Assembly (NCBI RefSeq): GCF_001940455.1 | Contig: NZ_MKQR01000017.1 | Coordinates: forward strand, 110,707-174,706 | DNA from: Actinokineospora bangkokensis | Lineage (GTDB): Bacteria > Actinomycetota > Actinomycetes > Mycobacteriales > Pseudonocardiaceae | Reading direction: 5' to 3' | Length of the DNA stretch: 64,000 nucleotides | Shown: one piece after another, positions 2,790 to 50,345 of the stretch | How positions within the stretch are numbered: the stretch's first letter is position 1 | Layout: every line of letters starts with the position of its first letter | The notes under the pieces: generated by a model | What the model saw: only the letters and a program-made list of their open reading frames with translations | Database searches by the model: none | Told to the model about the DNA's origin: nothing | Program-made: the position numbers and the translations under genes

Positions 2790-3005
2790 GCCTCGCCTGC
2801 GGCTTCGGGCGTTGAGTGCGGGATTTTTGTGGCGGGCTCGATGCGGTGGACCTGTTTGGGTGGGGCCCCTACGGCGATCATGAGCTGAGAGAGCGGGAAA
2901 AGCTGGGGCCAAAAGAGCCCCGCTCAACCCGGACAGGGTAGCTCATGATCGCCTTCCCCACCCAAACAGGTCCACCGCATCGAGCATATCCGTAGCCGGG
3001 CTGCC
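2790..3005 (-). repeat. Dispersed palindromic element, copy A (minus orientation)
   Basis: Copy A of a repeated structured element, read on the minus strand. Outer stem arms 2836-2865 and 2956-2985 are 30 nt each and perfectly complementary, starting GCTCGATGCGGTGG. Inner stem arms 2873-2886 and 2940-2953 (GGCGATCATGAGCT) are also perfect. They are separated by an asymmetric internal loop of 2 nt on one side and 7 nt (GTAGGGG in element orientation) on the other. A conserved head (GGCAGCCCGGCTACGG) lies at 2990-3005 and a conserved tail (GCCGCAGGCGAGGC) at 2790-2803. No open frame is credible inside it. It lies between the converging 3' ends of the glycosyltransferase and LCP genes. Confidence 0.85.
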
Positions 3006-3216
3006 CGGTCCGTAAGTGCTTGCGTCATGGGAAAAGCCGAAAGACCAGAGCCGGGGACGGTGTGGTGCGGCGGGAAGGTGCCGCCTCCAGGAGAAGAGGG
3101 GGGCGGCGGCTACGCCGCCGCCCTGAGAAGCGGCTTGGCGGCGGCGAAGCCACGCCAAGCACATCACCCGTAATGCTTGCCTGACAGTACGAAGCAGGGT
3201 GCCCACCTGCGAATCC
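3006..3216. other. Structured spacer between inverted copies A and B
   Basis: This 211 bp lies between two head-to-head copies of the dispersed element. It contains two further hairpins: 3101-3123 (9-bp arms, GGGCGGCGG / CCGCCGCCC) and 3133-3160 (8-bp arms, GCTTGGCG / CGCCAAGC). A 97-codon minus-strand frame crosses it, but it runs into the repeat and has no protein-like composition, so I do not call a gene. The arrangement resembles a small composite of two inverted repeats with a non-coding cargo; no transposase is present. Confidence 0.5.
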
Positions 3217-3430
3217 GGCGGCCCGGCTACGGACATGCTCGATGCGGTGGACCTGTTTGGGTGGGGTAGGCGATCATGAGCTACCCTGTCACGGGTTGAG
3301 CGGGGGTCTTTTCGCCCCAGCTTTTCCCGCTCTCCAGCTCATGATCGCCGTAGGGGCCCCACCCGAACAGGTCCACCGCATCGAGCCTGCAACACAATCC
3401 CGAATCACCCGCCGATGCCGCAGGCGAGGC
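3217..3430 (+). repeat. Dispersed palindromic element, copy B (plus orientation)
   Basis: Copy B of the element, nearly identical to copy A but in the opposite direction. Head 3217-3232 (GGCGGCCCGGCTACGG); outer stem 3237-3266 with 3357-3386; inner stem 3269-3282 with 3336-3349; 7-nt bulge GTAGGGG at 3350-3356; third stem 3298-3304 with 3326-3332 (GAGCGGG / CCCGCTC); tail ending 3430. The only non-Watson-Crick position in the outer stem is T3258 opposite G3365, a wobble pair in the plus-strand transcript. It ends 18 bp from the LCP stop codon, antisense to that gene. Confidence 0.87.
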
Positions 3431-3447
3431 GAATCAGCCTGAGGCCC

Positions 3448-4527
3448 TCACCCGCCCAGGATCTTCTGCTTCTCCAGCGACACCGGCTTGTCCGTGTTGA
3501 TCGCCTGCGCCGCCGCCTTCAGCGCGTCGACGTCGAGGGTCAGCACCGGTGCGCCGCCCGCGGCGGAGGACTTGGACTTCACCGGGGCCAGGTAGAAGCT
3601 CACCTTGTCCTTCGGGGTCGACACCAGGTTGCGGAGCAGGGCCTGGAGGGTGTCGTTGGTGAGGGTGGCGTCGACGGTGAGGTTGCTGGTGACGGTGTTG
3701 ATGACCCGCATGAGCTGGGCGGGGTCCTTGAGGACGTCGATGGTGGAGATCTTGGCGGCGATGGCGGCGAGCAGGCGCTGCTGGTTGAGCACGCGGTCGA
3801 TGTCGTCGTTGCCGAGGGCGACGCGCTGGCGGACGAAGGCGACGGCGCGCTGGCCCTGGAGGGTGAGGTTGCCCGCTGCGAAGGTCTGCCTGCTCAGCGG
3901 GTCGGTGGTGGTGGTCGGGTTGACGACGGTGACGCCGCCGAGGGCGGTGGTGATGTCGGCCAGGGCGCGGAAGTCGACGACCATGACGTGGTCGACGCGG
4001 ACCCCGGTCAGGCCCTCCACGGTCTGCACCACCAGCGGCACACCGCCCTGGGCCAGGGTGTTGTTGATCTTCTCGGTGCCGTGGCCGGGGACATCGACGA
4101 CCGAGTCGCGGGAGATGGACAGGACCTCGGCGTGGCTGGAGTCGCCGGACTGGCGGATCAGCATGATGGTGTCGGCCTTGTCGCCGGGGACGTCGCCCGG
4201 GGAGTCGGCCTGGCCGCGGTCGCTGCCGATGAGCAGGGTGACCGCGGGGCCGGTGGCACCGGTGGCGCGCGCGGCCGGGCGCGGGCCGATGCCGTCGAGC
4301 ATGGTGGCGGGCATGACCTCGATGTCGTCGGTGACCGAGGTGGTCAGCGCGTAGGCGAAGCCGGTGCCCACGACGACGAGCAGGGCGCCGAGCAGCGCGG
4401 CGAACCGCAGGGCCAACGCCCCCGGCCCCACCCCGCGCCGCCGCGGCGCCGGTGGCGCCGGGTCCGGGTCGGACCAGTCGAACCCGCCGAGCCCCACCGA
4501 CCTGGCCGTGCCGTCGTTTTCGCTCAT
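3448..4527 (-). CDS. LytR-CpsA-Psr (LCP) family cell-envelope phosphotransferase
   Basis: Membrane-anchored enzyme that transfers lipid-linked glycopolymers (such as arabinogalactan, teichoic acid or capsule) to peptidoglycan, by family. The 359-residue protein has a cytoplasmic N-terminus with a proline-rich stretch. One transmembrane helix (about residues 32-55, LRFAALLGALLVVVGTGFAY) is followed by the extracellular LCP domain. Family hallmarks are visible: TLLIGSDR, DKADTIMLIR, SISRDS with the conserved Arg-Asp, and KINNTLAQGG. The ATG at 4527 was chosen over longer frames because it begins the recognisable protein. It is divergent from the sugar transferase at 4630; context supports a role in attaching the fucose-containing polymer made here. 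Confidence 0.9.
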   Translation of the reverse strand: MSENDGTARSVGLGGFDWSDPDPAPPAPRRRGVGPGALALRFAALLGALLVVVGTGFAYALTTSVTDDIEVMPATMLDGIGPRPAARATGATGPAVTLLIGSDRGQADSPGDVPGDKADTIMLIRQSGDSSHAEVLSISRDSVVDVPGHGTEKINNTLAQGGVPLVVQTVEGLTGVRVDHVMVVDFRALADITTALGGVTVVNPTTTTDPLSRQTFAAGNLTLQGQRAVAFVRQRVALGNDDIDRVLNQQRLLAAIAAKISTIDVLKDPAQLMRVINTVTSNLTVDATLTNDTLQALLRNLVSTPKDKVSFYLAPVKSKSSAAGGAPVLTLDVDALKAAAQAINTDKPVSLEKQKILGG

Positions 4528-4629
4528 GGCTGAAGACGGTACGACCGCGAGGCCCGCTCGCCAAAGGATGTGCGGCGGTTGTCCACGATGGAGTGATGTC
4601 CCCGTCGCGGGCGGTGATGTCGGGCGAAG

Positions 4630-6036
4630 ATGTGGTGCGGGGCGGGCGGTGGCAGCGGGCCCCGGGTGGAGGTCGGTGTGTGGTGGACGCGTTTCCGCGC
4701 GGTGCTGGCGTTCTCGGACGCGGTGGTGGTGCTGGGCGCCGCGGCCTGCGTGCCGCTGCTGGGTGGCGCGCGGGACCCGTGGCCGGTGCTGCTCGCGGCG
4801 GCCGCGGCGTGGTGGGTGGCGCTGGGCGTCGGCGGGTCCCGCGACCAGCGCTACCTGGGGGTGGGCCAGGAGGAGTACAAGCGGCTGGTGTCGGTCACCG
4901 TCCACCTGATCGGGGTGGTGGCGCTGGTGGCCCTGCTGCTGCGCACCGACGCCCCGCGCCCGTACCTGACCACCGCCGCCCCGGTGGGGGCCGCGGCGCT
5001 GCTGCTCACCCGGTGGGGGTGGCGGCAGTGGCTGCACGCCCGCCGCCGCCACGACCCCACGTGGTCGCACCGGGTGCTGCTGGTGGGCAACGGCGCCACC
5101 GTCGACCACCTGTCCCGCCAGCTCGCGAGCCGCGCCCACCTGGGCTACCACGTCGTGTGCACGTGGGAGGTGACCAGCGCGCACGAGGTCGACATCGCCG
5201 AGACGGCCAGGGCGCTGGTGCGCCTGGCGCGGCGCAACGAGGCCGACGTCATCGCCGTCACCACCTCCGACGCGCTCAGCTCCGAGCTGCTGCGCCGCCT
5301 GGGCTGGCTGCTGGAGGGCACCGGCCTGCAACTGGTGGTCGTCCCCGGCCTGCTGGCCGTGGCGGGCCCCCGCGTGCACACCAGGCCCATCGCGGGCCTG
5401 CACCTGCTCTGCATCGAGGAACCGACGTTCACCGGCGCCACCCGGGTCGCCAAGCGGGTGTTCGACGTGGCCGCGGCGGGCGCCGCCCTGGTCGCGCTCA
5501 GCCCGGCCCTGCTGGCCATCGCCCTGGCGGTGCGCACCACCTCACCCGGCCCGGTGTTCTACTCCCAGACCCGCATCGGCAAGCACGGCAGGCCCTTCCG
5601 CATGGTCAAGTTCCGCACCATGTCCACCGACGCCGACCACCGCCGCGCCGAGCTGCTGACCGCCAACGAGCTCGACGGCCCCATGTTCAAGATGCGCGAC
5701 GACCCCCGCGTGACCCCCGTGGGCCGCTGGCTGCGCCGCTACTCCCTCGACGAGCTGCCCCAGCTGTTCAACGTCCTGCTCGGCCGGATGAGCCTCGTCG
5801 GCCCCCGGCCGCCGCTGCCCGACGAGGTCCGCCGCTACGCCAAGGACACCCGCCGCCGCCTGCTCGTCACCCCCGGGCTCACCGGCCTCTGGCAGATCAG
5901 CGGCCGCAGCAACCTCTCCTGGTCCGACGGCGTGGCCCTCGACCTCCAGTACGTCGAGAACTGGTCGTTCACCACCGACCTGGTGATCCTCTGGAAGACC
6001 GCCCGGGTCGTGGTGGCGGGCACCGGCGCCTACTGA
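4630..6036 (+). CDS. Polyprenyl-phosphate sugar-1-phosphate transferase (WcaJ/CpsE-like)
   Basis: Initiates exopolysaccharide repeat-unit synthesis by moving a hexose-1-phosphate from a nucleotide sugar to undecaprenyl phosphate at the inner membrane. The 468-residue protein has four to five hydrophobic segments in the first 130 residues, a CoA-binding-like middle region (RVLLVGNG, residues about 145-240), a further membrane segment near 285, and a C-terminal bacterial sugar-transferase domain. That domain shows FRMVKFRTM, YSLDELPQLFNVL (catalytic Asp-Glu), MSLVGPRPPLPDE and TPGLTGLWQISGRS. The start could be this ATG or a GTG slightly downstream at the first membrane segment. It converges on the Wzz/BY-kinase gene across a strong hairpin. 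Confidence 0.9.
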   Translation: MWCGAGGGSGPRVEVGVWWTRFRAVLAFSDAVVVLGAAACVPLLGGARDPWPVLLAAAAAWWVALGVGGSRDQRYLGVGQEEYKRLVSVTVHLIGVVALVALLLRTDAPRPYLTTAAPVGAAALLLTRWGWRQWLHARRRHDPTWSHRVLLVGNGATVDHLSRQLASRAHLGYHVVCTWEVTSAHEVDIAETARALVRLARRNEADVIAVTTSDALSSELLRRLGWLLEGTGLQLVVVPGLLAVAGPRVHTRPIAGLHLLCIEEPTFTGATRVAKRVFDVAAAGAALVALSPALLAIALAVRTTSPGPVFYSQTRIGKHGRPFRMVKFRTMSTDADHRRAELLTANELDGPMFKMRDDPRVTPVGRWLRRYSLDELPQLFNVLLGRMSLVGPRPPLPDEVRRYAKDTRRRLLVTPGLTGLWQISGRSNLSWSDGVALDLQYVENWSFTTDLVILWKTARVVVAGTGAY

Positions 6037-6054
6037 CCCACCCCCCACATGCCA

Positions 6055-6083
6055 GGACCCCCACCGCGCCGCGGTGGGGGTCC
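6055..6083. terminator. Bidirectional hairpin terminator
   Basis: Arms GGACCCCCACCGCG (6055-6068) and CGCGGTGGGGGTCC (6070-6083) are perfectly complementary and sit between the converging sugar transferase and Wzz/BY-kinase genes. There is only a weak T-rich tail (CGTTGTG), which is common for actinomycete terminators. Confidence 0.75.
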
Positions 6084-6111
6084 CGTTGTGCGATCGGGGG
6101 AACGCCTGCCC

Positions 6112-7584
6112 TCAGAGGCGGTGCGAGTGCGCCCGCACCGGCTTGATCTGCACCGTGCTGTCGTTGTCCACCCGCTGCACCTCAGCCCGCGGCTCCGGCA
6201 CGTCGTCCCCCTTGTCCTTCTCCTTGCCCTTGCCCTTCGGCGGCACCGGCGCGTAGCTGTAGTACCCCGCGGTCACCCCCTGGGTCGGCGGGAGCAGGTT
6301 CAGCACGACCCCCAGCAGCCGCGCCCCGGCCGTGTCGAGCATGCGCAGCGACCGGCGCAGCTCCTCGCGCTTGACCTTGCCCGTGCCCGCCACCATCAGC
6401 GCGCCGCCCACGTGCGCGGACAGCAGCACCGCGTCGGTGACCGGCAGCAGCGGCGGCGCGTCGATGACCACCAGGTCGAACCGGGCGCGCAGGGTGTCGA
6501 CCACCTCGGCCATGGTGCGGGTGCCCAGCAGCTCGCTCGGGTTCGGCGGCGTCTCCCCCGCCGTCAGCACCGACAGCTCCCCCGAACCCCACTCCTGCAA
6601 CGCGTCCTCGACGTCGATCCGTCCCAGCAGGACGGTCGTGAGCCCCACGGTGTCGAACAGCCCGAGGTAGCGCGCCACCTGCGGGCGGCGCAGGTCGGCG
6701 TCCACCAGGCACACCGACAGCCCGTTGTCCACGCACGCCAGCGCCAGGTTGATCGCGGTGGTGCTCTTGCCCTCCTGCGGGATCGAGGAGGTGACCACCA
6801 GGGAGTCCAGGTGCCCCACCGCGTCGACGAACTGGAGGTTGGTGCGCAGGGTGCGGAACGCCTCGGCGCGGAACCCCTGCGACTGGCGCACCAGGGTCGG
6901 GTTGTCGCCCGCCTGCCGGTCGAACGGGATCTCGCCGAGCACCGACGCGTCGGCCAGCGCGGCCACGTCCTTCTCGCTGCGCACCCGGGTGTCCGACAGC
7001 TGCCGCAGCAGCGCCGCCGCGCCGCCCCCGAGCAGGCCGAGCAGCACCCCGATCCCGGTGTTGAGCGGCCACGAGGGCAGCACCGGCGAGGTGGGGGCCA
7101 CCGCGTCGCGCACCGAGGTCACCTGCACCGGGGAGGGGTTGTCCCCCACCTTCTCCAGCACGCCGACGACGGAGACGAACGACGCGCTCACCGCGTTGGC
7201 GATGCGCGCGGCGCGCTCGGCGTCGGTGTCGCGCACGCTGATGTCCACCAGCACGGTGTCCAGCGGCACGGTGACGGTGATGCGCGCGGCGAGGTCGGTG
7301 GCGGTGGTGCCCAGCGCGAGGTCCTTGATCACCGGGTCGAGCACGCGGGGCGTGGTCACCACCTGGGTGTAGGACTTGACCCGCTGCTGGGTGAAGCTGC
7401 TGCCGGAGAACAGCTCCGTGCCCTCCGCGCTCTGCTTGGTGGAGACGAACAGCTCCGTCTGCGCCTCGTACTGCTCGGTGGTGGCGAGGGTGATCCCCAC
7501 CGCCACCGCGACCCCCAGCACCAAGCCCCCGACCACCCAGCGCCAACGGGCCCGCACCGCCCGCAGGAACTCCAGCAACTCCAC
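6112..7584 (-). CDS. Wzz-type chain-length regulator fused to BY-kinase ATPase
   Basis: Controls polymer length and export of exopolysaccharide as a co-polymerase with bacterial tyrosine kinase activity. Two hydrophobic helices (residues about 15-36, VVGGLVLGVAVAVGITLA, and about 170-190, GIGVLLGLLGGGAAALL) flank an extracytoplasmic Wzz domain. The C-terminal half has Walker A SSIPQEGKSTT, Walker A' LVDADLRRP and Walker B LVVIDAPP. The tail has several Tyr (GYYSYAP) that could be autophosphorylated and a Lys-rich linker. The frame opens with GTG at 7602, but the GTG at 7584 has GAGGGAG just upstream and is preferred. It fits with the LCP and sugar transferase genes next to it. Confidence 0.9.
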   Translation of the reverse strand: MELLEFLRAVRARWRWVVGGLVLGVAVAVGITLATTEQYEAQTELFVSTKQSAEGTELFSGSSFTQQRVKSYTQVVTTPRVLDPVIKDLALGTTATDLAARITVTVPLDTVLVDISVRDTDAERAARIANAVSASFVSVVGVLEKVGDNPSPVQVTSVRDAVAPTSPVLPSWPLNTGIGVLLGLLGGGAAALLRQLSDTRVRSEKDVAALADASVLGEIPFDRQAGDNPTLVRQSQGFRAEAFRTLRTNLQFVDAVGHLDSLVVTSSIPQEGKSTTAINLALACVDNGLSVCLVDADLRRPQVARYLGLFDTVGLTTVLLGRIDVEDALQEWGSGELSVLTAGETPPNPSELLGTRTMAEVVDTLRARFDLVVIDAPPLLPVTDAVLLSAHVGGALMVAGTGKVKREELRRSLRMLDTAGARLLGVVLNLLPPTQGVTAGYYSYAPVPPKGKGKEKDKGDDVPEPRAEVQRVDNDSTVQIKPVRAHSHRL

Positions 7585-7659
7585 GTCCGCTCCCTCGTGC
7601 ACACCACAGGTCGGCCTACGGTGTCACAGCGGCGGGGGGATGTCGTCCACGATCAGCCG

Positions 7660-7711
7660 CACGATCGGGTGAACTCGGCGTCCACCCCGGACACCGGTTC
7701 ACCCGATCGTG
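7660..7711 (-). terminator. 15-bp perfect inverted repeat downstream of parC
   Basis: Arms CACGATCGGGTGAAC (7660-7674) and GTTCACCCGATCGTG (7697-7711) are perfect complements with a 22-nt loop. They lie between the parC stop (7734) and the 5' end of the Wzz/BY-kinase gene. It is probably the parE-parC terminator. The absence of a U tract and the proximity to the kinase gene leave an operator role possible. Confidence 0.5.
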
Positions 7712-7733
7712 GAAGGCCCGCGCGCCGGGCGGG

Positions 7734-10700
7734 TCAGGCGCGCTCGATGAGGTGGCCGACCACGTCCGGCCCCGGGTGCGCGGCGCCCGAGCCGTCGCGG
7801 CGCGGGTCCGGCTCGGGCAGCTCCACCGCCGACCCGGTGCGGCTCGACCCGACCGGCCGCGACCCCACCCAGGCCAGCGCCAGGCGCGTCTCGCCCTTGA
7901 GGAACCGGTGCGCCCGCACGCCGCCGGTGGCCCGGCCCTTGGCCGGGTACTCCGCGAACGGGGTCACCTTCACCGACTGCCCCGTGGACGTGATCACCAT
8001 CGGCTCGCCGTGCTCGGGGTCCTCGGTGCGCACTGCGCCGAAGAACACCGCCTTGGCCCCCGCGGGCAGGTTCACCCCCGCCATGCCGCCGCCCTTGAGG
8101 CCCTGCGGGCGGACCAGCCCGGCCGCGTACCGCAGCAGCGACGCCTCCGAGGAGACGAACACCAGCGACTCGGCGCCGTCGACCAACCAGGTGGCGCCGA
8201 TGACCTCGTCGCCGTCCTTGAGCGTGATCACCTCGAACTCGTCGGAGCGCACCGGCCACTCCGGCGCGCACACCTTGACCACGCCCTGCGCGGTGCCCAG
8301 CGCCAACCCCGGCGACCCGGCCGCCTGCTCGCCCAGCGGGGCGATGCCGATGACCCGCTCACCCGCGTCCAGCGGCACCAGCTCGCTCGCCGCCATGCCC
8401 CCGCTCAGCGACACCGTGCCCACCTGCTGCGGCAGCACCGGCAGCGGCAGCACATCGGTCTTGAATGCCCGGCCGCGGCTGGTCACCAGCAGCACCTGCC
8501 CGCGCGCGGTGGAGTGCACCACCGCCGACACCGCGTCGTGGCGCGCCCGGCCGTTGCGCCTGCGGCCCTCGGCGGCCTCCTCCGACTCCGCGGCCGTGCG
8601 GGCCACCAGGCCGGTGGCCGAGAGCACCACCTGGCACGGGTCGTCGGCCACCTCCAGCGGCCCGGCGGGCCGGGACGCGGCCAGCACCTCCTTGAGGTCG
8701 CCGTCGACCAGCGCCGTGCGCCGCTCCCCCGCCAGGTCCTTGGCCACCTTCGCCAGCTCCTGCGAGACCACCTTGCGCAGCACCGAGTCGTCGTCGAGGA
8801 TCCGCGACAGCTCGGCGATCTCGCTGGTCAGCTGGTCCTGCTCGGCCTCCAGCTCCAGCTTGTCGAACTTGGTCAACCGGCGCAGCGGGGTGTCGAGGAT
8901 GTAGGTCGACTGCACCTCGGACAGCCCGAACTGCGCCACCAACCCGGACTTGGCGGCCGCGGCGTTCTCGCTGCCGCGGATGAGCGCGATCACCTTGTCG
9001 ATGTCGAGCAGCGCCCGCAGCAGGCCCTCCACCAGGTGCAGCCGCTCCTCGCGCTTGCGCTTGCGGTAGCGGGTGCGCCGGGTCACCACGTCGTAGCGGT
9101 GCTGCAGGAAGACCTCCAGCAGCTCCTTGAGCCCCAGCGTCCTGGGCTGGCCGTCGACCAGCACCAGGTTGTTGATGCCGAAGGACTGCTCCATCGGCGT
9201 GAGCCGGTACAGGTCGGCCAGCAGCGCCTGCGGGTTGACCCCCACCTTGCACTCGATCACCAGCCGGGTGCCGTTCTCCCGGTCGGTGAGGTCCTTGACG
9301 TCGGCGATCCCGGTCAGCCGCTTGGACTTGGTGACCTCGTCGGTGATCTTCTCGATGATCTTCTCCGAGCCCACCTGGTAGGGCAGCTCGGTCACGGTGA
9401 TCGCCTGCCGCCCGCGCGAGCCCTCCAGCGGCCCGATCTCGACCTTGGCGCGCATCCGCACCACCCCGCGCCCGGTCTCGTAGGCCTTGCGCACCTCGTC
9501 CAGGCCCAGCAGCAGGCCACCGGTGGGCAGGTCCGGGCCGGGCACCAGCTCCATGAGCTTGTCCAGGGTCGCCGCCGGGTGGGTGATCAGCCACCGCGCG
9601 GCGGCCACGACCTCGCCCAGGTTGTGCGGGATCATGTTGGTCGCCATCCCGACCGCGATCCCGGACGTGCCGTTGACCAGCAGGTTCGGGAACGCCGCGG
9701 GCAGCACGGTCGGTTCCAGCAGCGAGCCGTCGTAGTTGGGCCGGAAGTCGACGGTGTCCTCACCGAGCTCCCCGACCAGCAGCATCGCCTCCTGCGACAT
9801 CCTGGCCTCGGTGTAGCGGCTGGCCGCCGGGCCGTCGTCCGGGCTGCCGAAGTTGCCGTGCCCGTCGACCAGCGGGGCGTTGAGCGAGAAGTCCTGGGCC
9901 AGGCGCACCATCGCGTCGTAGATCGCGGTGTCGCCGTGCGGGTGGTACTTGCCCATGCAGTTGTGCACCACGTGGCCCTCGACGACGAAGGCGTGCTCGC
10001 TGCTGCCGACCTGGATGTCGTAGGTGGTGTCCTCGGTGACCGGGACGACCGACACCACGCGCAGCTCGCCGGTGGGGGCGGTCATCGCCCGCAGCTGCCG
10101 GTGCAGCTCCGGGTCGGTGGCCGCGCAGGCGATGGCGTCGGTGGCCAGCCCGCCCGCGGCCAGGCCCGCCAGGTAGCTGGGCCAGGCGGCCCGGTCCGAC
10201 AGCACGTCCTCGGGGACCCGGCCCGCCAGCGCCTCGGCCATCGGCCGGGCCACCGGGTCGGCCGGGGTGAACGCCAGCACGTGCAGGTCGCGGCCGTCGG
10301 GGGCGGCGGCCTCGCGCTTGTCGCGGCACACCCGCACCCCGGCGCCGATCGCCCAGCCGTGCGCCCGGTCGACCGCCTCGACCTCGGGGGTGGTCAGCAG
10401 CACCCGGCCGTCGGCGTCGGCGGTGCCCAGCGCCGTCAGCAGGCCGAGCACGTGCTCCAGGCCGGAGTCCTCGGCGCGCACCGCAGGCCGCGCCGCCGCG
10501 GACACGGTGCGCCTGCCGGTGAGCGCGCGCGCCTGCACCCAGCCGTCGGGGGTCATGAACCGCTGGCCGGGGGTGGTCACCAGGGTGTGCCCGTCCGACC
10601 AGGTGACCCGCACCAGCGCCGACACCGGGTTCTCATACACCTCGACCACCGGCACCGGCTGCCCGGCGCCGTCGAGCACCAGGTCACCGACCTCCAGCGC

Positions 10701-11015: not shown

Positions 11016-11043
11016 GGCTCTGGGACTCTCTTCTCGGTGGTGC

Positions 11044-13841: not shown

Positions 13842-13853
13842 TCGCGCGCACGT

Positions 13854-13890: not shown

Positions 13891-13902
13891 GCCCGCCCGG
13901 GG

Positions 13903-26389: not shown

Positions 26390-26489
26390 CCACCCACCCA
26401 CTGTCCAGTCAGAACACCCCACCCCCTCCACCCATCTCACGGTCCCACAGCACTTCTTCTTCTCCCGCAACGCAACCTCCCTCGCAGCA

Positions 26490-26700
26490 GGCGGCCCGGC
26501 TACCCGGGTGCTCGATGGGGTGGTTGTGCTTGGTCGGGGGAGGCGATCATGTGCTACCCAACGGGACGGGCGGGCGTCTTTCCAGCCCGCCTTTTCCCCG
26601 CCCGCAGCGCATGATCGCCGTAGGGGCCCCGACCGAGCACAACCACCCCATCGAGCCCGCCACAACAGTCCCGCCCCTCCACCGAAGCCGAAGGCGAGGC
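26490..26700 (+). repeat. Dispersed palindromic element, copy C (plus orientation)
   Basis: Same architecture as copies A and B but with many paired changes. Outer stem 26510-26539 with 26627-26656 (GGTTGTGCTTGGTC pairs with GACCGAGCACAACC). Inner stem 26542-26555 with 26606-26619 (GTGCT with AGCGC). Bulge GTAGGGG at 26620-26626. The third stem is a CGGGCGGG/CCGCCCG type. Head GGCGGCCCGGCTAC at 26490; tail GCCGAAGGCGAGGC ends 26700. The non-Watson-Crick positions T26531-G26635 and T26552-G26609 are both U-G wobbles on this strand. It lies 54 bp from the xylB stop, antisense to it. Confidence 0.87.
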
Positions 26701-26754
26701 GAGGCGAGACGAGGCGAGACCCAGCGCCCAGCACCAACCATCCACACAGGACCC

Positions 26755-28146
26755 TCACCCCAGGTCGGGCACAGCGTCCCGCACAGCGGCGTACCGCTCC
26801 CGCACCCCCGGCACCACGTCCCCCTCCACCAGGACCCCGCCGACCCCGCCCCACACCGGCGGTTCACCCCCGCCGCCGAGCATCCACGCCGCCTGCCGCG
26901 CTGCCCCGCCCGCCGCGTACTCGGCCGGGTCCGGCACCAGCACCGGCCGCCCGAGCACCCCGGGCGCGATCGCCCGCAGCGCCGCCGACCGGGCGCCCCC
27001 GCCGACCAGGATCACCCGGTCGGCGCGCACCCCCGCGTCCAGCAGGGCGTCCAGCCCGTCGGCCAACCCGCACAGCACGCCCTCCACCGCCGCGCGGGCG
27101 AGGTGGGCGGGGGTGCTGGTGGCCAGCGTCAACCCGTGCACGCTGCCGGTGGCGTCCGGCCGGTTCGGGGTGCGCTCGCCCTCCAGGTAGGGCAGGAACA
27201 CCACCCCGCCAGCGCCCGGCGGGGCGGACAGCGCCAGCTCGCTGAGCCGGTCGAGGTCGACCCCGAGGATCGAGCACGTCGCGGTGAGCACGCGGGCCGC
27301 GTTGAGCGTGCAGACCAGCGGCAAGAAGCGGCCCGCGGCGTCGGCGAAACCCGCGATCGTGCCCTCGGGGTCGGCGGTCGGGGTGTCGCTGACGGCGAAG
27401 ACGGTGCCCGAGGTGCCGATGGACACCACCACGTCGCCCGGCCCGGCCCCGACGCCCAGCGCGACGGCGGCGTTGTCGCCCATGCCCGCGCCCAGGCGCA
27501 CGTGCCCGTGGGAGCCCACCTGCTCCGCGGGCGCCGCCACCCGGGGCAGCTCGACGCCGTGGCCCAGGGCCAGCTCGACGTGTTCGGGGAGGTAATGGCC
27601 CGCGGTGGCGTAGTAGCCGGTGCCGCTGGCGTCGCTGCGGTCGGTGCTGAGGGTGTCCAGGCCACCGCCCGCCAAGCGCCAGGTGAGGTAGTCGTGGGGC
27701 AGGGCGACGGCGTGCACGCGGGCGGCGTTGTCGGGTTCGTGGTCGCGCAACCAGCGCAGCTTGGTGACGGTGAACGAGGCGGTGGGCACGGTGCCGGTGC
27801 GCTCGGCCCACGGCCCGGGCCCGCCCAGCTCGGCCACCAGGTCGCGGGCGGCGCCCGCCGAGCGGGTGTCGTTCCACAGCAGCGCGTCGCGCACGACCCG
27901 CCCGTCGCCGTCGAGGGCGACCATGCCGTGCTGCTGGCCGCCGACCGACAGCGCCGCCACGTCGTCCAGCCCGCCCGCGTCGGTGATCGCCTCGGTGAGG
28001 GCGTGCCACCAGCGGGCGGGGTCGACCTCGGTGCCGCCGGGGTGCGCGGCGCTGCCCTGGCGCACCGGGGTGCCGTCCTCGGCGTCGCGCACCACGACCT
28101 TGCAGGACTGGGTGGAGGAGTCGACGCCCGCGACCAGCGTCCTCAT
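26755..28146 (-). CDS. xylB: Xylulokinase
   Basis: Phosphorylates D-xylulose to xylulose-5-phosphate, the second step of xylose catabolism. FGGY-family kinase of 463 residues: [17 protein letters not shown] phosphate-1 motif, [22 protein letters not shown], and [31 protein letters not shown] supplies the adenosine-binding part. ATG 28146 overlaps the xylA stop (ATGA), so xylA-xylB is a coupled operon. The longer open frame to 29172 is a shadow of xylA. Confidence 0.93.
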
Positions 28147-41141: not shown

Positions 41142-41156
41142 CCCACCGCACCCCCG

Positions 41157-41197
41157 GCGAGGCCGTTCCCGTTCCGCGGGAGCGGCCTCGCCCGTTT
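41157..41197 (+). terminator. Terminator of the ABC transporter operon
   Basis: GCGAGGCCGTTCCCG (41157-41171) pairs with CGGGAGCGGCCTCGC (41177-41191) with one U-G pair, followed by CCGTTT. Confidence 0.8.
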
Positions 41198-42382: not shown

Positions 42383-42406
42383 CCCCACCAGCAAGTAGCA
42401 CCCCGA

Positions 42407-42446
42407 GAAGGGGGGCGGGCCCACGCCCGCCCCCCTTCTTTCCTTT
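42407..42446 (+). terminator. Strong intrinsic terminator
   Basis: GAAGGGGGGCGGGC (42407-42420) pairs perfectly with GCCCGCCCCCCTTC (42425-42438) across a CCAC loop, followed by TTTCCTTTT. Confidence 0.88.
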
Positions 42447-42485
42447 TCCCGCAGGCGAAGAACCACCAGCCCGCCATTGAGCAAG

Positions 42486-42552
42486 CGCAACCACCCCACA
42501 TCGAGCCCGCCACCAAACGACCGGGCTCTTCAAAGATCGGGCGAAGCCCGAT
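42486..42552 (+). repeat. Decayed 3' remnant of the dispersed element (copy E)
   Basis: CAACCACCCCACATCGAGCC (near 42488) corresponds to the distal outer-stem arm and tail start of copies C and D. The following ACGACCGG is shared with copy D just after the arm. The proximal arm and inner stem are missing or eroded. A small hairpin, ATCGGGC-GAA-GCCCGAT, follows at about 42535-42551. The rest of the 42383-42768 gap shows only the terminator at 42407 and a likely promoter. Confidence 0.4.
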
Positions 42553-42768
42553 GCCCCCACCCAAGCAACGTGACCCAAACCACACAGTTCGGTACGGACG
42601 GTTTTTCATCACCTCGCCGCAACCCCACCCCACCCCCGTGCACACCCCCTGAGCGGAACCGCCCCCACACCCCCAACCCCCTGCGCCAGAACGATTCCAG
42701 CCGCTTGCAGCCCCCCACCCACCCGGTCCATGCTGGCCCTCCCCCACCCCCGGACTGGAGATGGACCC

Positions 42769-43647: not shown

Positions 43648-43696
43648 CGCCGAAAGGCGCAACCGGCGGGTGGTCCGGCGAGGTACCTCACCCCGC

Positions 43697-44295: not shown

Positions 44296-44330
44296 CCCGG
44301 CCGCCCCGCCCCGGGGCCGGGGTTGCCGCC

Positions 44331-44377
44331 GCGGTGGGGGAGGAAAGCAGCCGAACGGACCTTTCCCCCACCACCGC
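44331..44377 (+). terminator. Imperfect hairpin before the amylase-pullulanase gene
   Basis: GCGGTGGGGGAGGAAAG (44331-44347) pairs with CTTTCCCCCACCACCGC (44361-44377) with a small irregularity. It probably ends the upstream membrane-protein transcript. The 45 bp after it hold the pullulanase leader. Confidence 0.5.
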
Positions 44378-44421
44378 CTCGTGGTGTTGTGCTCGGACCA
44401 CAGCACGACGAGGAGGTCGTC

Positions 44422-47400
44422 ATGGCCCGAGGTTGGCGCGTCGCGCTGACGACGATCCTGGCCACCGCGCTGGTCGCCCCCGCCCTGCCCGCGGCGGCGC
44501 AGCCCGCGGCGGCCGCGGGCCCGGGCACCCGGTTGGCGGTCGGGGAGGTGCTCGACGTGGCGCCGGGGACGCGGCCGCAGGACCGGCAGCTGGCCGGGGA
44601 CGCGCTGCGCGAGGACGTGGCCGGGGAGCGGTTCTACTTCGTGATGCCGGACCGGTTCGCCAACGGCGACCCCCGCAACGACCGCGGCGGCAGCCCGAGC
44701 ACCGACCGGCTCACCACCGGGTTCGACCCCACCGACAAGGGGTTCTACCACGGTGGTGACCTCGCCGGGTTGCGCGGCAAGCTGGACTACCTCGACGGCA
44801 TGGGGATCACCGCGATCTGGATGACCCCCATGTTCGCGAACCAGTGGGTGCAGGGCTCGGGCGCGGACGCCTCGGCGGGCTACCACGGCTACTGGACGAC
44901 CGACTTCACCCGGTTCGACCCGCACTTCGGCACGACCGCCGACATGCAGGGGCTCATCCGCGACGCGCACCGGCGCGGCATCAAGGTCTTCTTCGACATC
45001 GTCGCCAACCACACCGCGGACGTCATCGACTACGCCGAGGGCAAGCACGACTACGTCTCCACCGGGGCCGTGCCCTACCTCGACGCGCAGGGCAACGTCG
45101 TCGACATCAAGGCGAAGGCCGGGCAGCGGGACTTCCCCCGGCTCGACGCCCAGAAGTCGTTCCCCTACACCCCGGTCGTCCCGGCGGGCAAGCCGCGCAA
45201 GGTGCCGGACTGGCTCAACGACCCGGCGCTCTACCACAACCGCGGCGACTCGACCTTCAGCGGCGAGTCCACCGAGTACGGCGACTTCTCCGGCCTCGAC
45301 GACCTGATGACCGAGGACCCCAGGGTCGTCGAGGGCATGCAGCGCATCTTCACCAGCTGGATCGACACCCTCGACATCGACGGGTACCGGGTCGACACCG
45401 TCAAGCACGTCAACATGGAGTTCTGGCAAGCGCTTGCGCCGCACGTGCAGCAGTACGCCGAGCGCCGGGGCAAGCGGGACTTCTTCGTCTTCGGCGAGGT
45501 CTACTCCTCCGACACCTCGCTCACCTCCGCCTACACCACCACCGGGCGCATGCAGGCCTCGCTGGACTTCCCGTTCCAGAGCGGCGCGCTGGAGCTGCTG
45601 TCGGGCAAGGGCGCCGCGCGCCTGGGCGAGGTCATCACCGAGGACGACCGCTACACCGACGCCGACTCCAACGCCTCGTCGCTGCCGACCTTCCTGGGCA
45701 ACCACGACATGGGCCGGATGTCGTGGATGCTGCGCCAGGCGGGGGTCCCCGAGTCCGAGCTGCTGGACCGGCTCAAGCTGGGCAACGCGCTGATGTACCT
45801 GTGGCGCGGCAACCCCGTCGTCTACTACGGCGACGAGCAGGGCTTCGCGGGGTCGGGCGGGGACAAGCTCGCCCGGCAGGACATGTTCGCCAGCAAGACC
45901 CCGGAGTACGCCGCCGAGCGCTTCATCGGCAGCGACCGCACCGGCGCCGTGGACAACTTCAACACCGCCCACCCGCTCTACCGCCAACTGGCCGACCTCG
46001 CCCGGTTCGTCGACCGCGACCAGGTGTGGGCCAAGGGCAACCAGGCGCTGCGCTACAGCGAGGGCAACGTCCTGGCGTTCAGCCGCACCACCGCCCGCGA
46101 CCAGCGCGAGCACCTCGTGGTCGCCAACGCGGGCGCCACCCCCGTCACCGTCGACGTCCCGGCGGCGGGGCCCGGCACCCGCTACCGCACCGAGTTCCCG
46201 GCCCAGGGCAGCGGCCCGACCGCGGGGCAGGACGGCAAGGTGCGCGTCACCATCCCCGCGCTGTCCCTGGTGTCGCTGGCCGCCACCGACCGCCCGCGCG
46301 CGACGGTCCAGAACCCGACCCTGGTCGCCCCGGCGGCGGGTACCGCGCTGGACACGCGCGTCGAGGTGAAGGCGGACGGCATCACCACCCCCTTCGCCCA
46401 GGCGACGTTCGCCGCGCGGGTGCAGGGCAGCCGCGACTGGACGATCCTCGGCACCGACGACACCGCGCCCTACCGGGTATACGCGGACCTGTCCACGGTG
46501 CCGGGCGCCGCGGTGGGCAAGAAGCTGGAGCTGCGGGTCGTCAGCAAGAACGGTGACAACCAGCTCAGCGCGGACGGCGCCACCATCACCCTCGTCGCGG
46601 CGCCGCCCGTGCAGGAGCCCGGCGCAGGGCAGAGCCCGGACTGGCTCGTGGTGCACTACAACCGCCCCGGCGGTGACTACGACGGGTGGGGCGTGCACGT
46701 CTGGGGCGACGTGGAGACGCCGACCGACTGGGCCTCGCCGCTGCCGTTCGCGGGGGAGACCCCCTACGGCCGGTTCGCGTGGGTGAAGCTCAAGCCCGGC
46801 GCCAAGCAGGTCGGGGTCATCACGCACAAGGGCGACGAGAAGGACGGCGGCGACCGGTTCATCGACCCCTCGGTGACACCCCAGGCGTGGTTGAAGCAGG
46901 GTGCCACGGACGTGTTCGCCACGGAGGTGGCCGCCACCGGTCAGGCGAAGGTTCACGTGCAGCGCACCGACGGCAACTACGCCGGGATCGCCGTGCGCGC
47001 GGGCGGGCAGGACTACCCGTTGGCCGGGGACGACTTCGGCGGCGTGGCCACCATCCCGACCACTGTGGTGCCACTGGACTTCTCCGTCGTCAACGGGTCG
47101 ACCGCCCTGGCCACCGGCAAGCTCACCGGCGGTTCCGCGTGGGTCAAGGACGGCGTGGTCTCCGCCTCGCGCGCGGGTGCGGAGAACAAGGCCGTCATCC
47201 ACTACCACCGCCCGGACGGCGACTACGCCGACTGGGTGCTATACCACTGGACGGGCTCGTTGGAGCCCAGCCCGAGCTGGACGCAGTCGCGGCAACCGGA
47301 CGCCCGCGACGGCTTCGGCGTCACCTGGTCGGTGCCGCTGGCGCCGGGCGCGGCGGGGCTGAGCAACATCATCCACAAGGGCGACACCAAGGACCCGGGC

Positions 47401-50094
47401 AACGACCAGTTCCTCGACGTGTCGGGCACCGGGCACGAGGTGTGGTTCGTCTCCGGCTCGGCCAAGCAGGACGGGTCGGCCTCCTACGTGCTGCCGCCCT
47501 CGGCCGCCCCCGCCGCCGACGCCGACCTCACCAAGGCCAAGGCGATCTGGGTCAGCAAGGACAAGCTCGTCTGGGACGTCCCCGCGGTCGCCTCCGACGG
47601 CTACCAGGTGCGCTACGACCCCGCGGGCGGGATCGCCGTGGTGGGCGGGCAGGTCCAGGGCGGCAAGGTGCTGCGGCTGACCCCGTCCGGCGCGCTGGCC
47701 GGTGACCTCGCGGCGAAGTTCCCGCACCTGGCGGGCAAGCCCGCGTTCACCGTCCGACCGGCCGACGCGGGCCGGGTGGACGAGGCGCTGCGCGCGCAGC
47801 AGGTGGCCGTCCACGTCGACTCCAACGGCGGCCTGCGGCACGCCACCGGCACCCAGCTCGCGGGCGCCCTGGACGACCGGTACGCGGCGGAGGCGGCGAA
47901 GCTGTCCTACCGGCCGGAGGTCCAGGGCACCCGGGTCACGGCCCGCCTGTGGGCGCCGACCGCCCAGAAGGTGCGGCTGCGGCTGTTCGACTCCCCCACC
48001 GCGAACCCCCGCCAGGTCGTCGACCTGCGCCGCGACGACCGCACGGGCGCGTGGAGCGGCACCGGCGACTGGCGCGGCCGGTACTACCAGTACGAGGTCA
48101 CCGGCTGGTCGGTCAGCGAGGGCAAGGCGCGGACGGTCGTGGTGACCGACCCGTACTCGGTGGCGCTGTCCGTGGGCTCGACGCACTCGCAGTTCACCGA
48201 CCTGCGCGAGCCCGCCGCCACCCCGGCGGGCTGGGACCGCGAGGTCGCGCGCGGGCTGGGCGCCGACCCCACCGAGCACGGCATCACCGAGCTGCACGTG
48301 CGCGACTTCTCCGCGGGCGACCCGACCGTCCCGGCGGCCGAGCGCGGCACCTACAAGGCGTTCACCCACCGCGACTCGGCGGGGATGCGGCACCTGCGCG
48401 CGCTCGCCGAGGCGGGCATGGACACCGTCCACCTGCTGCCGACCTTCGACATCGCCTCGATCCCCGAGCGCCGCGCGGACCAGTCGGCGCCGGGCTGCGA
48501 CCTGGCCGCGCTGCCCGCGGACTCGCAGGAGCAGCAGGCCTGCGTGCAGGCGGTCGCGGACAAGGACGCGTTCAACTGGGGCTACGACCCGCTGCACTAC
48601 GACGTCCCCGAGGGCTCCTACGCCGTCGACGCCGACCAGACCGGCGCCGCCCGCTCCCGCGAGTACCGGGAGATGGTGAAGTCGCTGCACGAGAACGGCA
48701 ACCGGGTGGTGCTGGACGTGGTGTACAACCACACCACCGCCTCCGGCGACGCGCCGAACTCCGTGCTGGACAAGGTCGTTCCCGGCTACTACCAGCGCCT
48801 CAACGCTGACGGCACGGTCGCCAACTCCACCTGCTGCGCCAACACCGCGACCGAGAACGCGATGATGGGCAAGCTCGTGGTGGACTCGGTCGTGCACTGG
48901 GCCAAGGCGTACAAGGTCGACGGCTTCCGCTTCGACCTGATGGGCCACCACCCCAAGGCCAACATCCTCGCCGTGCGGGCCGCCCTCGACGCGCTGACCG
49001 TCGAGCGCGACGGCGTGGACGGCAGGTCCGTGCGCCTCTACGGCGAGGGCTGGGACTTCGGGGAGGTCGCGGGCGGCGCCCGCTTCGTGCAGGCCACGCA
49101 GCAGAACATGCGCGGCACGGGCATCGGCACCTTCTCCGACCGCGGCCGCGACGCGATCCGCGGCGGCGGCCCCTTCGACGACGACCCCCGCGTCCAGGGC
49201 CTCGCCTCCGGCCTGGCGGGCGCCTACAACGGCGTCGGCTCGACCCCGGACTCCCGCCTGCCCAACTACACCGACCTGGTCAAGCTCGGGATGGCGGGCA
49301 ACCTGGCCGACTACACCTTCCAGTCCTCCCAGGGCGTCAAGGCGGGCAAGGACATCCAGTACAACGGTTCCCCCGCGGGCTACACGGGCACCCCGGCCGA
49401 CGAGATCGCCTACGCCGACGCCCACGACAACGAAACCCTGTTCGACGCCTTGGCCCTCAAGCTGCCCCCGGGCACGGCCATGGCCGACCGCATCCGCATG
49501 CAGAACATCGCCCACGCCCCCATCCTGCTCGGCCAGGGCCAGCCGTTCATGCTCGCGGGCACCGAGTTCCTGCGCTCCAAGTCCCTCGACCGCAACAGCT
49601 ACAACTCCGGCGACTGGTTCAACCCCTACGACCCCACCCTGCGCGACAACGGCTTCGCCCGGGGCCTGCCCCCAGCGGCGGACAACTCCGCCAAGTGGAC
49701 CTTCATGTCCCCCGCCTTGGCCGACGCCACGCTGAAGCCGACCCCCCAGGACATGCGCAAGTCCTTCGACAACACCCTGGAACTGCTGCGCATCCGCAAG
49801 TCCTCCCCGCTGTTCACCCTGAACGACCCGGCCCTGGTGCAGACCAAGCTGTCGTTCCCGAACGCGGAACAGGGCCTGGTCGTCGCCCACCTCGACGACA
49901 CCCGGGGCCCGGACACCGACCCCGCCCGCCAGGGCATCGTGGTCATCATCAACCCCTTCCCCACCACCAAGACGGTCCAACTCCCCACCCCGGACTGGAC
50001 CCCCCACCCCGACAGCACCGACGCCAGGACGACCGTCCTCACCCCCACCACCGCCACCGTCCCCGCCCGCTCGGTGGTCGTCCTCACCCGCTGA
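44422..50094 (+). CDS. Secreted bifunctional alpha-amylase/pullulanase (two GH13 domains)
   Basis: A 1890-residue extracellular enzyme that would cut both alpha-1,4 and alpha-1,6 bonds. Signal peptide (residues 1-33), then a first GH13 barrel with FYFVMPDRFANGDPRND, nucleophile Asp325 (GYRVDTVKH), acid Glu359 (FVFGEVYS) and Asp429 (FLGNHDMG). Two pullulanase-associated carbohydrate-binding modules follow from about 742 (VVHYNRPGGDYDGW) and 924 (VIHYHRPDGDYADW). After a CBM48-like domain (from about 1165) comes the second, pullulanase GH13 with FDLASIP-like FDIASIPE, Asp1505 (GFRFDLMGHH), Glu1542 (YGEGWDFG) and Asp1669 (YADAHDNE). The C-terminal end fits the DUF3372-type domain. Both catalytic triads look intact. 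It resembles the Streptomyces amylase/dextrinase fusion. ATG 44422 follows GAGGAGG. Confidence 0.94.
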   Translation: MARGWRVALTTILATALVAPALPAAAQPAAAAGPGTRLAVGEVLDVAPGTRPQDRQLAGDALREDVAGERFYFVMPDRFANGDPRNDRGGSPSTDRLTTGFDPTDKGFYHGGDLAGLRGKLDYLDGMGITAIWMTPMFANQWVQGSGADASAGYHGYWTTDFTRFDPHFGTTADMQGLIRDAHRRGIKVFFDIVANHTADVIDYAEGKHDYVSTGAVPYLDAQGNVVDIKAKAGQRDFPRLDAQKSFPYTPVVPAGKPRKVPDWLNDPALYHNRGDSTFSGESTEYGDFSGLDDLMTEDPRVVEGMQRIFTSWIDTLDIDGYRVDTVKHVNMEFWQALAPHVQQYAERRGKRDFFVFGEVYSSDTSLTSAYTTTGRMQASLDFPFQSGALELLSGKGAARLGEVITEDDRYTDADSNASSLPTFLGNHDMGRMSWMLRQAGVPESELLDRLKLGNALMYLWRGNPVVYYGDEQGFAGSGGDKLARQDMFASKTPEYAAERFIGSDRTGAVDNFNTAHPLYRQLADLARFVDRDQVWAKGNQALRYSEGNVLAFSRTTARDQREHLVVANAGATPVTVDVPAAGPGTRYRTEFPAQGSGPTAGQDGKVRVTIPALSLVSLAATDRPRATVQNPTLVAPAAGTALDTRVEVKADGITTPFAQATFAARVQGSRDWTILGTDDTAPYRVYADLSTVPGAAVGKKLELRVVSKNGDNQLSADGATITLVAAPPVQEPGAGQSPDWLVVHYNRPGGDYDGWGVHVWGDVETPTDWASPLPFAGETPYGRFAWVKLKPGAKQVGVITHKGDEKDGGDRFIDPSVTPQAWLKQGATDVFATEVAATGQAKVHVQRTDGNYAGIAVRAGGQDYPLAGDDFGGVATIPTTVVPLDFSVVNGSTALATGKLTGGSAWVKDGVVSASRAGAENKAVIHYHRPDGDYADWVLYHWTGSLEPSPSWTQSRQPDARDGFGVTWSVPLAPGAAGLSNIIHKGDTKDPGNDQFLDVSGTGHEVWFVSGSAKQDGSASYVLPPSAAPAADADLTKAKAIWVSKDKLVWDVPAVASDGYQVRYDPAGGIAVVGGQVQGGKVLRLTPSGALAGDLAAKFPHLAGKPAFTVRPADAGRVDEALRAQQVAVHVDSNGGLRHATGTQLAGALDDRYAAEAAKLSYRPEVQGTRVTARLWAPTAQKVRLRLFDSPTANPRQVVDLRRDDRTGAWSGTGDWRGRYYQYEVTGWSVSEGKARTVVVTDPYSVALSVGSTHSQFTDLREPAATPAGWDREVARGLGADPTEHGITELHVRDFSAGDPTVPAAERGTYKAFTHRDSAGMRHLRALAEAGMDTVHLLPTFDIASIPERRADQSAPGCDLAALPADSQEQQACVQAVADKDAFNWGYDPLHYDVPEGSYAVDADQTGAARSREYREMVKSLHENGNRVVLDVVYNHTTASGDAPNSVLDKVVPGYYQRLNADGTVANSTCCANTATENAMMGKLVVDSVVHWAKAYKVDGFRFDLMGHHPKANILAVRAALDALTVERDGVDGRSVRLYGEGWDFGEVAGGARFVQATQQNMRGTGIGTFSDRGRDAIRGGGPFDDDPRVQGLASGLAGAYNGVGSTPDSRLPNYTDLVKLGMAGNLADYTFQSSQGVKAGKDIQYNGSPAGYTGTPADEIAYADAHDNETLFDALALKLPPGTAMADRIRMQNIAHAPILLGQGQPFMLAGTEFLRSKSLDRNSYNSGDWFNPYDPTLRDNGFARGLPPAADNSAKWTFMSPALADATLKPTPQDMRKSFDNTLELLRIRKSSPLFTLNDPALVQTKLSFPNAEQGLVVAHLDDTRGPDTDPARQGIVVIINPFPTTKTVQLPTPDWTPHPDSTDARTTVLTPTTATVPARSVVVLTR
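45426..45437. promoter_or_regulatory. Perfect LacI-type palindrome inside the pullulanase gene
   Basis: GCAAGCGCTTGC is a 12-bp perfect palindrome of the kind bound by LacI-family sugar repressors. It sits within codons 335-339 (WQALA) and uses CTT, a rare Leu codon here. It may be a downstream operator or chance. Confidence 0.35.
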
Positions 50095-50154
50095 CCCACC
50101 CACACCCACTCCCGATGTGCGAGCCCTGAATACAACGCCACCACCTACGCAGCA

Positions 50155-50345
50155 GGCAGCCCGGCTACGGGAGTGCTCGATGCGGTGGTCTTGTTTGGCT
50201 GGGGAAGGCGATCATGTGCTACCCACGGCGGGGGGTGGGGCCGCAGGCCTCACCTTTTCCCCACCCCGAGCACATGATCGCCGCAGGGGCCCCGGCCAAA
50301 CGAGACCACCGCATCGAGCCAGCCATCACACGACCGGTTCTTTTG
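50155..50345 (+). repeat. Dispersed palindromic element, copy D (plus orientation)
   Basis: Fourth copy. Head GGCAGCCCGGCTACGG at 50155-50170; outer stem 50175-50204 with 50290-50319; inner stem 50207-50220 (GGCGATCATGTGCT) with 50269-50282, perfect; bulge GCAGGGG at 50283-50289; third stem GGGGTGGGG (50232-50240) with CCCCACCCC (50259-50267). Two outer-stem positions, T50192-G50302 and T50200-G50294, are U-G wobbles on this strand. The tail (ACGACCGG) matches remnant E rather than A-C. Located between the pullulanase stop and the APC permease. Confidence 0.87.

Follow-up and report, generated by a model that had tools for sequence, protein, structure and literature searches.

The hairpins at gene ends, together with species versions that keep one fold, point to a spreading repeat, so far undescribed, whose working form is a folded single strand. 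With a probability of roughly 0.6, judged from sequence comparison, we take it to be a non-autonomous mobile repeat of the REP or bcr kind, larger than these and strand-specific, which probably acts at the 3' ends of mRNAs. The starting point was the description of four copies and a remnant in a 64,000-nt stretch of the Actinokineospora bangkokensis genome (the window, that is, the whole stretch of DNA that was analysed). The observation proved larger than the sequence-only reading had stated: the repeat is spread genome-wide and genus-wide, sits at gene 3' ends, exists in species versions, and two of its window copies, A and B, were copied as a unit.

In our own judgement, most dispersed repeats of bacteria are short, and it is often left unsettled whether the palindromes in them serve as DNA or as RNA. 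Here, a single family gives from at least 21 to at least 147 matches per genome (both strands counted) in 14 of 16 genus genomes, along with strong paired changes, a test of strandedness, pairs that were duplicated as units and a well-defined niche in the genome; with such material in one family, the DNA-versus-RNA question is open to settling by comparison and simple experiment. The covariance model is also useful to annotators, as it covers an abundant feature that has no Rfam 15 entry and seemingly breaks assemblies.

Copies in the window and architecture of the element

For the window, a pattern search was combined with model scoring, and each of the four copies (A to D) was present where the sequence-only reading had placed it. 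The 2/7-nt asymmetric loop, the 14-bp inner stem and the third stem were found in the copies as claimed; the outer stem also exists, with a length of 29 bp, close to the 30 bp claimed. The proposed remnant was located as well. The core patterns resulted in four to six window matches at three mismatches or fewer (the six of one pattern include two three-mismatch matches) against a shuffle mean of at most 0.32, and chance is therefore excluded for the window copies. The hairpins scored 147-162 bits against the model R1, values that are inflated, since copies of the same genome went into building R1. The features are as follows.

2815..2836, minus strand: tail of copy A, pointing at the gene called at 1545-2768 (plus strand, stop at 2768)
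2837..2984, minus strand: nested hairpin of copy A, with 29-bp outer stem, 2/7 internal loop, 14-bp inner stem and apical type I; 146.9 bits
2985..3028, minus strand: head of copy A, a 44-nt C/A-rich leader
2985..3237, no strand: stretch between the hairpins of A and B, with both heads and the spacer; alignable with the same stretch of the head-to-head pairs L032 and L082
3194..3237, plus strand: head of copy B, facing the head of A (head-to-head pair)
3238..3385, plus strand: nested hairpin of copy B; 148.6 bits
3238-3266 and 3357-3385, plus strand: outer arms of copy B
3269-3282 and 3336-3349, plus strand: inner arms of copy B
3283-3335, plus strand: apical part of copy B
3350-3356, plus strand: 7-nt bulge of copy B, GTAGGGG
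3386..3407, plus strand: tail of copy B, adjoining the minus-strand gene called at 3448-4527, whose 3' end is 3448
26467..26510, plus strand: head of copy C
26511..26655, plus strand: nested hairpin of copy C, apical type II; 162.2 bits
26656..26677, plus strand: tail of copy C, facing the minus-strand gene called at 26755-28146 from its 3' side
42484..42527, plus strand: remnant consisting of just the 3' outer arm and the tail, which share 93% identity with the corresponding parts of copy L032; it lies behind a terminator-like hairpin
50132..50175, plus strand: head of copy D, behind the plus-strand gene called at 44389-50094
50176..50318, plus strand: nested hairpin of copy D, apical type III; 149.4 bits; site empty in congener G013
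50319..50340, plus strand: tail of copy D

The element comprises about 210 nt: a 44-nt C/A-rich head, the nested hairpin and a tail of about 22 nt. The hairpin measured 142-149 nt in 97 of 99 own-genome copies. Within the hairpin, the 29-bp outer stem terminates in GGGG/CCCC and is followed by an internal loop of two unpaired nucleotides on the 5' side and seven on the 3' side (GYAGGGG, sometimes ATAGGGG). The apical part occurs in three main types in the own genome, I (GAGCGGG), II (GGGCGGGC) and III (GGGGTGGGG), and many copies carry within it a CUUUU tract after a GC hairpin. The predicted energy of the four window copies with flanks ranged from -136 to -158 kcal/mol, and that of the hairpins of relatives from -74 to -117 kcal/mol.

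Three smaller features were seen around the copies. Immediately before the remnant, window positions 42404-42444 hold a GC hairpin and a T-rich run, likely the intrinsic terminator of the gene ending upstream. Short tandem repeats of the GAGGCGAGAC type directly follow the tail of copy C (26690-26720). In the heads of many own copies, a conserved CGGCTACG and TG enclose a hypervariable tetranucleotide (GGGG, GCCC, GACA, CAAA, GTCT and others), located 4-5 nt ahead of the outer stem and possibly an insertion footprint.

Copy number, spread and placement

The host genome was expected to hold further copies, and the core-pattern and model searches found more than 100 beyond the window. The core GGCGATCATGNGCTACCC had 124 matches at two mismatches or fewer in the 7.45 Mb own genome (G000), compared with one for the reversed-pattern control. 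At one mismatch, the same core had at most one match in each of 15 congeners, and its exact sequence is therefore private to the host species.

We built a covariance model from 32 own-genome copies (alignment A2) and ran the search of host and relatives that the sequence-only reading had suggested, which returned matches in the genus and in the family. At E ≤ 1e-3, matches occurred in 15 of 16 genus genomes including G000, i.e., in 14 of the 15 other species. With the best 150 candidates scored per genome and both strands of one copy counted, the matches listed numbered at least 147 in G000, 145 in G003, 144 in G011, 138 in G004 and 109 in G008; the lower counts were at least 30 in G010, 21 in G013 and 3 in G015. 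Congener G005 had none among the matches listed at this threshold. From a family sample of 150 genomes, 13 matched, in 5 of 46 genera; the further genera were g8, g17, g20 and g31, the last two on one weak match each. The order sample (9 of 397 genomes) and the class sample (2 of 394) gave matches that all lay within the family; these searches scored the best 7 and 8 candidates per genome under strict filters and missed weaker genera known from the family search, so absence outside the family is not established.

Species carry separately amplified sequence versions of one architecture, consisting of an outer stem of about 29 bp, a 3' bulge, an inner stem and an apical hairpin, and the window element is the local version of a genus- to family-wide kind. 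Across the genus, the bulge nearly always ends in AGGGG before CCCC; GGGGCCCC and the preceding A are kept in nearly all of 25 genus sequences, and the first bulge bases vary between species. The bulge of genus g8 reads AGAGG before CTC or AAGGGC.

Assemblies seem to break at copies, and the copy numbers given here are therefore probably lower bounds. The signs were runs of N in L004 and L046, a CTAGCTAGCTAG stretch after two heads in L059, and partial matches at many contig ends of G013. In L059 (own genome, contig C26), two further heads, at about 1440 (plus strand) and 3329 (minus strand), run into CTAGCTAGCTAG, which resembles an artificial scaffold linker; real copies were probably collapsed there. 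By eye, none of the reading frames between the three L059 copies resembled a transposase.

The copies sit behind stop codons, both in the own genome and in other genomes. We examined 98 of 102 own copies, and among the 90 with both neighbouring genes called, 60 were convergent, 29 tandem and 1 divergent. For comparison, the 28 window gaps of at least 60 nt comprised 5 convergent, 14 tandem and 9 divergent (Fisher p 7e-6 for convergent and 7e-6 for divergent). From 98 copies of 12 other genomes, 63 had both neighbours called, of which 33 were convergent, 29 tandem and 1 divergent. In tandem settings, the co-transcribed strand was the head-to-tail strand by 38 to 20 when both sets were pooled (p 0.025), and by 19 to 10 in each set alone (p 0.14). 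All gene calls were made with a codon-position scorer trained on the window, not with a standard gene finder.

Covariation, the folded strand and sequence constraint

The claim that the stems reflect compensatory evolution of a folded molecule was supported by strong covariation over many copies and species and by an excess of G.U over A.C. With many copies aligned, the covariation exceeded both shuffled and slid controls. In the own genome, 98.9% of the 1376 cells formed by 43 outer and inner pairs in 32 copies pair (shuffled 89.1%), and 19 pairs changed on both sides. The covariation score of these copies was 0.317, against 0.133 shuffled and at most 0.066 slid; the further pair types showed no excess (32 versus 33.5 shuffled). 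For the genus, we used an alignment of 25 sequences from 15 species (A5), in which the 24 outermost pairs were counted, where the alignment is safe, so that the covariation between species concerns the outer stem only. As a result, 99.5% of 600 cells pair (shuffled 76.4%), 19 of the 24 pairs changed on both sides, and the score reached 0.638, against 0.180 shuffled and at most 0.112 slid. Relatedness can inflate a comparison with shuffles; the slid control preserves relatedness and was clearly passed. The cross-genus MAFFT alignment (A4) was too poor for pair counts, which come from the genus alignment only, and alignment A3, with both strands mixed, was excluded.

Paired changes alone can arise without a functional fold, for instance if replication switches templates from one arm of an inverted repeat to the other, or if one enzyme reads both ends. 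The paired changes were nearly all from Watson-Crick to Watson-Crick, with G.U in 11 of 600 cells of the 24 outer pairs in the 15-species alignment. When a stem changes on one side only, the result is G.U in one strand and A.C in its complement. In 98 copies from 12 other genomes, the head-to-tail strand had 267 G.U against 12 A.C, and the reverse strand 56 G.U against 151 A.C, these cells not being independent events and A.C being counted in one-by-one mismatches only. Counted as distinct states, the head-to-tail strand had 78 G.U against 8 A.C, and it was the more stable strand in 77 of the 98 copies. The asymmetry held for states in three or more copies (37 G.U versus 1 A.C) and for single-copy states (33 versus 5). 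The model that assigned the orientation itself favours G.U; the orientation is also fixed by the bulge and the apical part.

In the own genome, the head-to-tail strand of 94 of 99 elements had 102 G.U against 13 A.C; four elements of other length and one poorly paired were omitted. No G.U excess was found there among states in three copies or fewer (8 G.U versus 13 A.C copies), so the asymmetry lies in widely shared states, of which those in more than three copies comprised five G.U and zero A.C. Because G.U lies far above A.C on the head-to-tail strand, that strand must fold. The data support a folded single strand; the G.U/A.C test cannot separate RNA from single-stranded DNA. That the folded strand is under selection, we hold with high confidence.

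Nearest-copy differences among 94 own-genome copies were lowest in the inner stem (0.7-1.1%) and the outer stem (2.8-3.3%). Within the loop, they amounted to 2.7% for the 7-nt bulge and 14.4% for the 2-nt side; outside the hairpin, they rose to 15.3% in the head and 20.9% in the tail, in ungapped comparisons in which indels inflate the head and tail figures. The alignment took in 94 of the 102 own copies, and the order of constraint was the same if the neighbour was picked by the head alone. Within four subfamilies, heads differ by 13-29%, tails by 16-33% and stems by 0-3%. Taken at face value, the contrast between stems and flanks does not fit neutral decay after insertion, and suggests that either each copy is under selection or gene conversion homogenises the hairpins. 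Subfamilies of the own genome combine outer, inner and apical modules in different ways, which fits some exchange between copies. Some own-genome copies have lost parts. Copy L085 (contig C7) is shortened, with the outer stem kept and most of the inner and apical parts lost. At about position 1124 of L037 (plus strand), adjoining a complete copy, a head is directly followed by tail-like sequence with no hairpin, from which we infer a hairpin loss between short direct CCTG repeats.

Mobility, competing explanations and known repeat systems

The flanks of copy D lie 370 bp apart in the window and 69 bp apart in congener G013, where a short GC hairpin stands instead and no model match was found (L205). 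The D site is thus a clean empty site in G013, and the only clean one read. At the A/B site, G011 is collinear on both sides, and the model had no match in between; a different gene is present at that position, and the site is consequently not a clean empty site. The extra reading frame there (L213/L218, G011:C39:22456-23569) resembles by eye a low-molecular-weight phosphatase. The C site was not collinear in the congeners matched. Among sampled copies, few flanks were common to species; at L049/L121, the element is present in both species in different versions.

Most own-genome copies are single. The matches listed included at least 13 close inverted pairs, 11 head-to-head and 2 tail-to-tail, with head-to-head gaps of 100-101 bases (three pairs), 137 (one) and 224-262 (seven). 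We read 12 of the 13 close pairs, the C21 pair being left out. The ten head-to-head pairs read fell into three spacer classes with 76-90% identity within a class: L036, L053, L056 and L073 (83-87%), L030, which is the A/B pair of the window, with L032 and L082 (76-87%), and L021, L034 and L045 (85-90%). Between its heads, the first class has a conserved spacer of about 165 nt. A common spacer (89% identity) is also seen in the two tail-to-tail pairs, L064 and L078. The DNA beyond the pairs is not shared, except for short stretches near them, a single 254-bp match (68%) and two matches of 44-53 bp. Since spacers are shared and outer DNA is not, the pairs were copied as units to unrelated places, which raised our already high estimate of mobility slightly further; that the element is a mobile structured repeat is, in our assessment, very probable.

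No clear peak for a target-site duplication appeared in 92 copies (best offset 13 versus 2.2, possibly a subfamily effect), and the intergenic DNA of congeners does not align, which leaves the ends of the element approximate. A 29-bp inverted repeat is present, with the conserved head and tail outside it. Shared flanking genes, searched as a pointer to a mobilising gene, yielded no more than scattered matches from species to species, including one to a presumably YebC-like protein. The Y1 transposase domain (PF01797) had 0 matches in G000 and occurred in 2 of 16 genus genomes and in 5 of 14 control ring genomes; the two congeners carry single Y1 transposase genes (L331 in G001, L332 in G012). 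The reverse transcriptase domain PF00078 was absent from G000 and present in 3 of 16 genus genomes, and a reverse transcriptase-borne or group II intron-derived element was rejected on its absence from G000.

An ordinary DNA-level MITE, with the arms as terminal inverted repeats read by a transposase, complementarity arising from the common enzyme or from template-switch correction, and no folded molecule, would account for the almost exclusively Watson-Crick replacements with few G.U cells, for the mixing of modules between subfamilies and for the inverted pairs, and MITEs with long stem-loops are known from an extract of PMC2229807. A symmetric DNA process predicts equal G.U and A.C, however, and the ratio of 267:12 on one strand with the opposite on the reverse speaks against it, as do the one-sided bulge with its kept GGGGCCCC and preceding A, the conserved head outside the inverted repeat and the 92 copies in which no target-site duplication stood out; we regard a plain MITE as rather unlikely. 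About as doubtful is an RNA element that the host maintains in cis as a 3'-end terminator or mRNA stabiliser, preserved at each locus through selection on the adjoining genes, and whose spread is rare and incidental. It would explain the position after stop codons in own and other genomes, stems far more conserved than heads and tails even among nearest copies (compared ungapped), the apical CUUUU tract of many copies and the preference for the co-transcribed strand (significant when pooled, not per set). It sits poorly with sampled copies lying mostly at different places between species, with species-specific versions, with the plain hairpin of G013 in place of copy D, with pairs copied as units and with the lack of listed matches in G005.

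Another possibility places the function in the apical part, as a bistable switch or triplex in which one G-rich strand has two C-rich strands, placed around a U tract, as alternative partners, giving a terminator/antiterminator or an intrastrand triplex. In a test of 45 sequences, with up to six per genome, 20 contained a word that has two non-overlapping complements further downstream (p ≤ 0.05, each sequence being compared with 60 of its dinucleotide shuffles). They comprised 4 of 6 sequences in G000 (types II and III), 4 of 6 in G010, 4 of 6 in G002, 3 of 6 in G011, 2 of 2 in G134, 1 of 4 in G096, 1 of 1 in G022 and 1 of 1 in G034. An E. coli G/C-rich intrastrand triplex motif, an intergenic three-strand repeat with 9-nt stems, is described in the extract of PMC4666352, and the apical part likewise often places one G-rich strand against two C-rich strands. 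That motif, as far as the extract goes, lacks the 29-bp outer stem seen here, and the apical dual pairing is not universal: none passed in G013 (4 sequences), G006 (5), G069 (2), G120 (1), G045 (1) or type I of G000, the median p was 0.066, and some passing words use the U tract, not a C-rich strand, as one partner. We consider this reading improbable. Far less credible still is a REP/BIME of the RAYT kind. REPs measure 20-40 bp and carry GTAG or CGTC tags (PMC3733652, in part). They resemble our element in their high copy number, their intergenic and mainly convergent or co-directional position, their species-differing versions and their head-to-head dimers with conserved spacers (PMC3733652, PMC2817692, both in part), and GTAG stands in the bulge of many own-genome copies, a survey that omitted two copies containing N. 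In contrast, the hairpin here is about 145 nt with nested covarying stems, GTAG is not kept in all relatives, and Y1 is absent from 14 of 16 genus genomes, G000 included. A RAYT-driven REP in this genome was rejected on these grounds, and the element is not a REP member, because two defining features were tested and neither was found.

We therefore return to the mobile repeat acting as a folded strand. Such a non-autonomous element would move singly or as pairs, copied in trans by a putative enzyme that reads or needs the folded head-to-tail single strand, and would settle behind stop codons, where harm is least. Flanking genes would then transcribe it as a 3' untranslated region, in which the hairpin may set or protect the mRNA 3' end by blocking a 3'-to-5' exonuclease, by RNase III cleavage or by aiding termination between convergent genes. 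A real RNA role at the 3' end, as suggested by the sequence data, is a tentative part of this proposal, a little short of an even chance. A narrower variant makes the folded head-to-tail strand itself the vehicle of spread, through RNA or single-stranded DNA and an enzyme that is neither Y1 nor a PF00078-type reverse transcriptase. It builds on the own genome, in which only fold-keeping variants on the head-to-tail strand became widely shared, and we think it unlikely.

The view of the sequence-only reading that no named family matches agrees with Rfam, which gave no match above the gathering score for either the window or ten loci. Rfam 15 had 0 matches in the window; at E ≤ 1, the ten loci gave four weak matches, all below the gathering score, two of them miRNA-precursor models on the hairpin. 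A blastn search of phage and plasmid records gave no match, and the core pattern occurred in 15 IMG/VR stretches, none confirmed by the model (best E 0.93). In the open-licence papers searched, no element recognisable as this repeat was found.

Extracts of the literature on other repeats allow a comparison by way of working. NEMIS/Correia and ERIC measure about 107-155 bp and form long stem-loops in transcripts, with effects on neighbouring mRNAs proposed via RNase III for NEMIS and via RNase E for ERIC (PMC2229807, extract). They have target-site duplications, TA termini and terminal inverted repeats of 7-24 bp, whereas in our element no duplication stood out and the 29-bp repeat lies inside a conserved head and tail. 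The bcr repeats of Bacillus cereus, according to the extract of PMC3446304, include some MITE-like members (bcr1-3), and others with a conserved structure (bcr10 and bcr18) that are predicted functional RNAs; 84 of 165 and 62 of 155 copies lie in mRNAs in two strains. They are dispersed intergenic repeats like ours, likened by way of working and not by sequence; they belong to different bacteria, and our element combines high copy number and covarying structure in one family. In the parts of these sources consulted, REPs collect behind stop codons, and hairpins may alter mRNA ends or stability (PMC3733652, PMC2229807, PMC3446304). By analogy, the nearest way of working would be that of REP/BIME, NEMIS, ERIC and bcr, as gene-less repeats that spread and then become untranslated RNA (same extracts). 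The element is set apart by a large nested fold kept across species despite the replacement of most outer pairs, and by its strand-specific signal.

One further arrangement was seen in L135 (G013:C5), in which the tail and a neighbouring stretch are tandemly repeated several times upstream and downstream of one copy.
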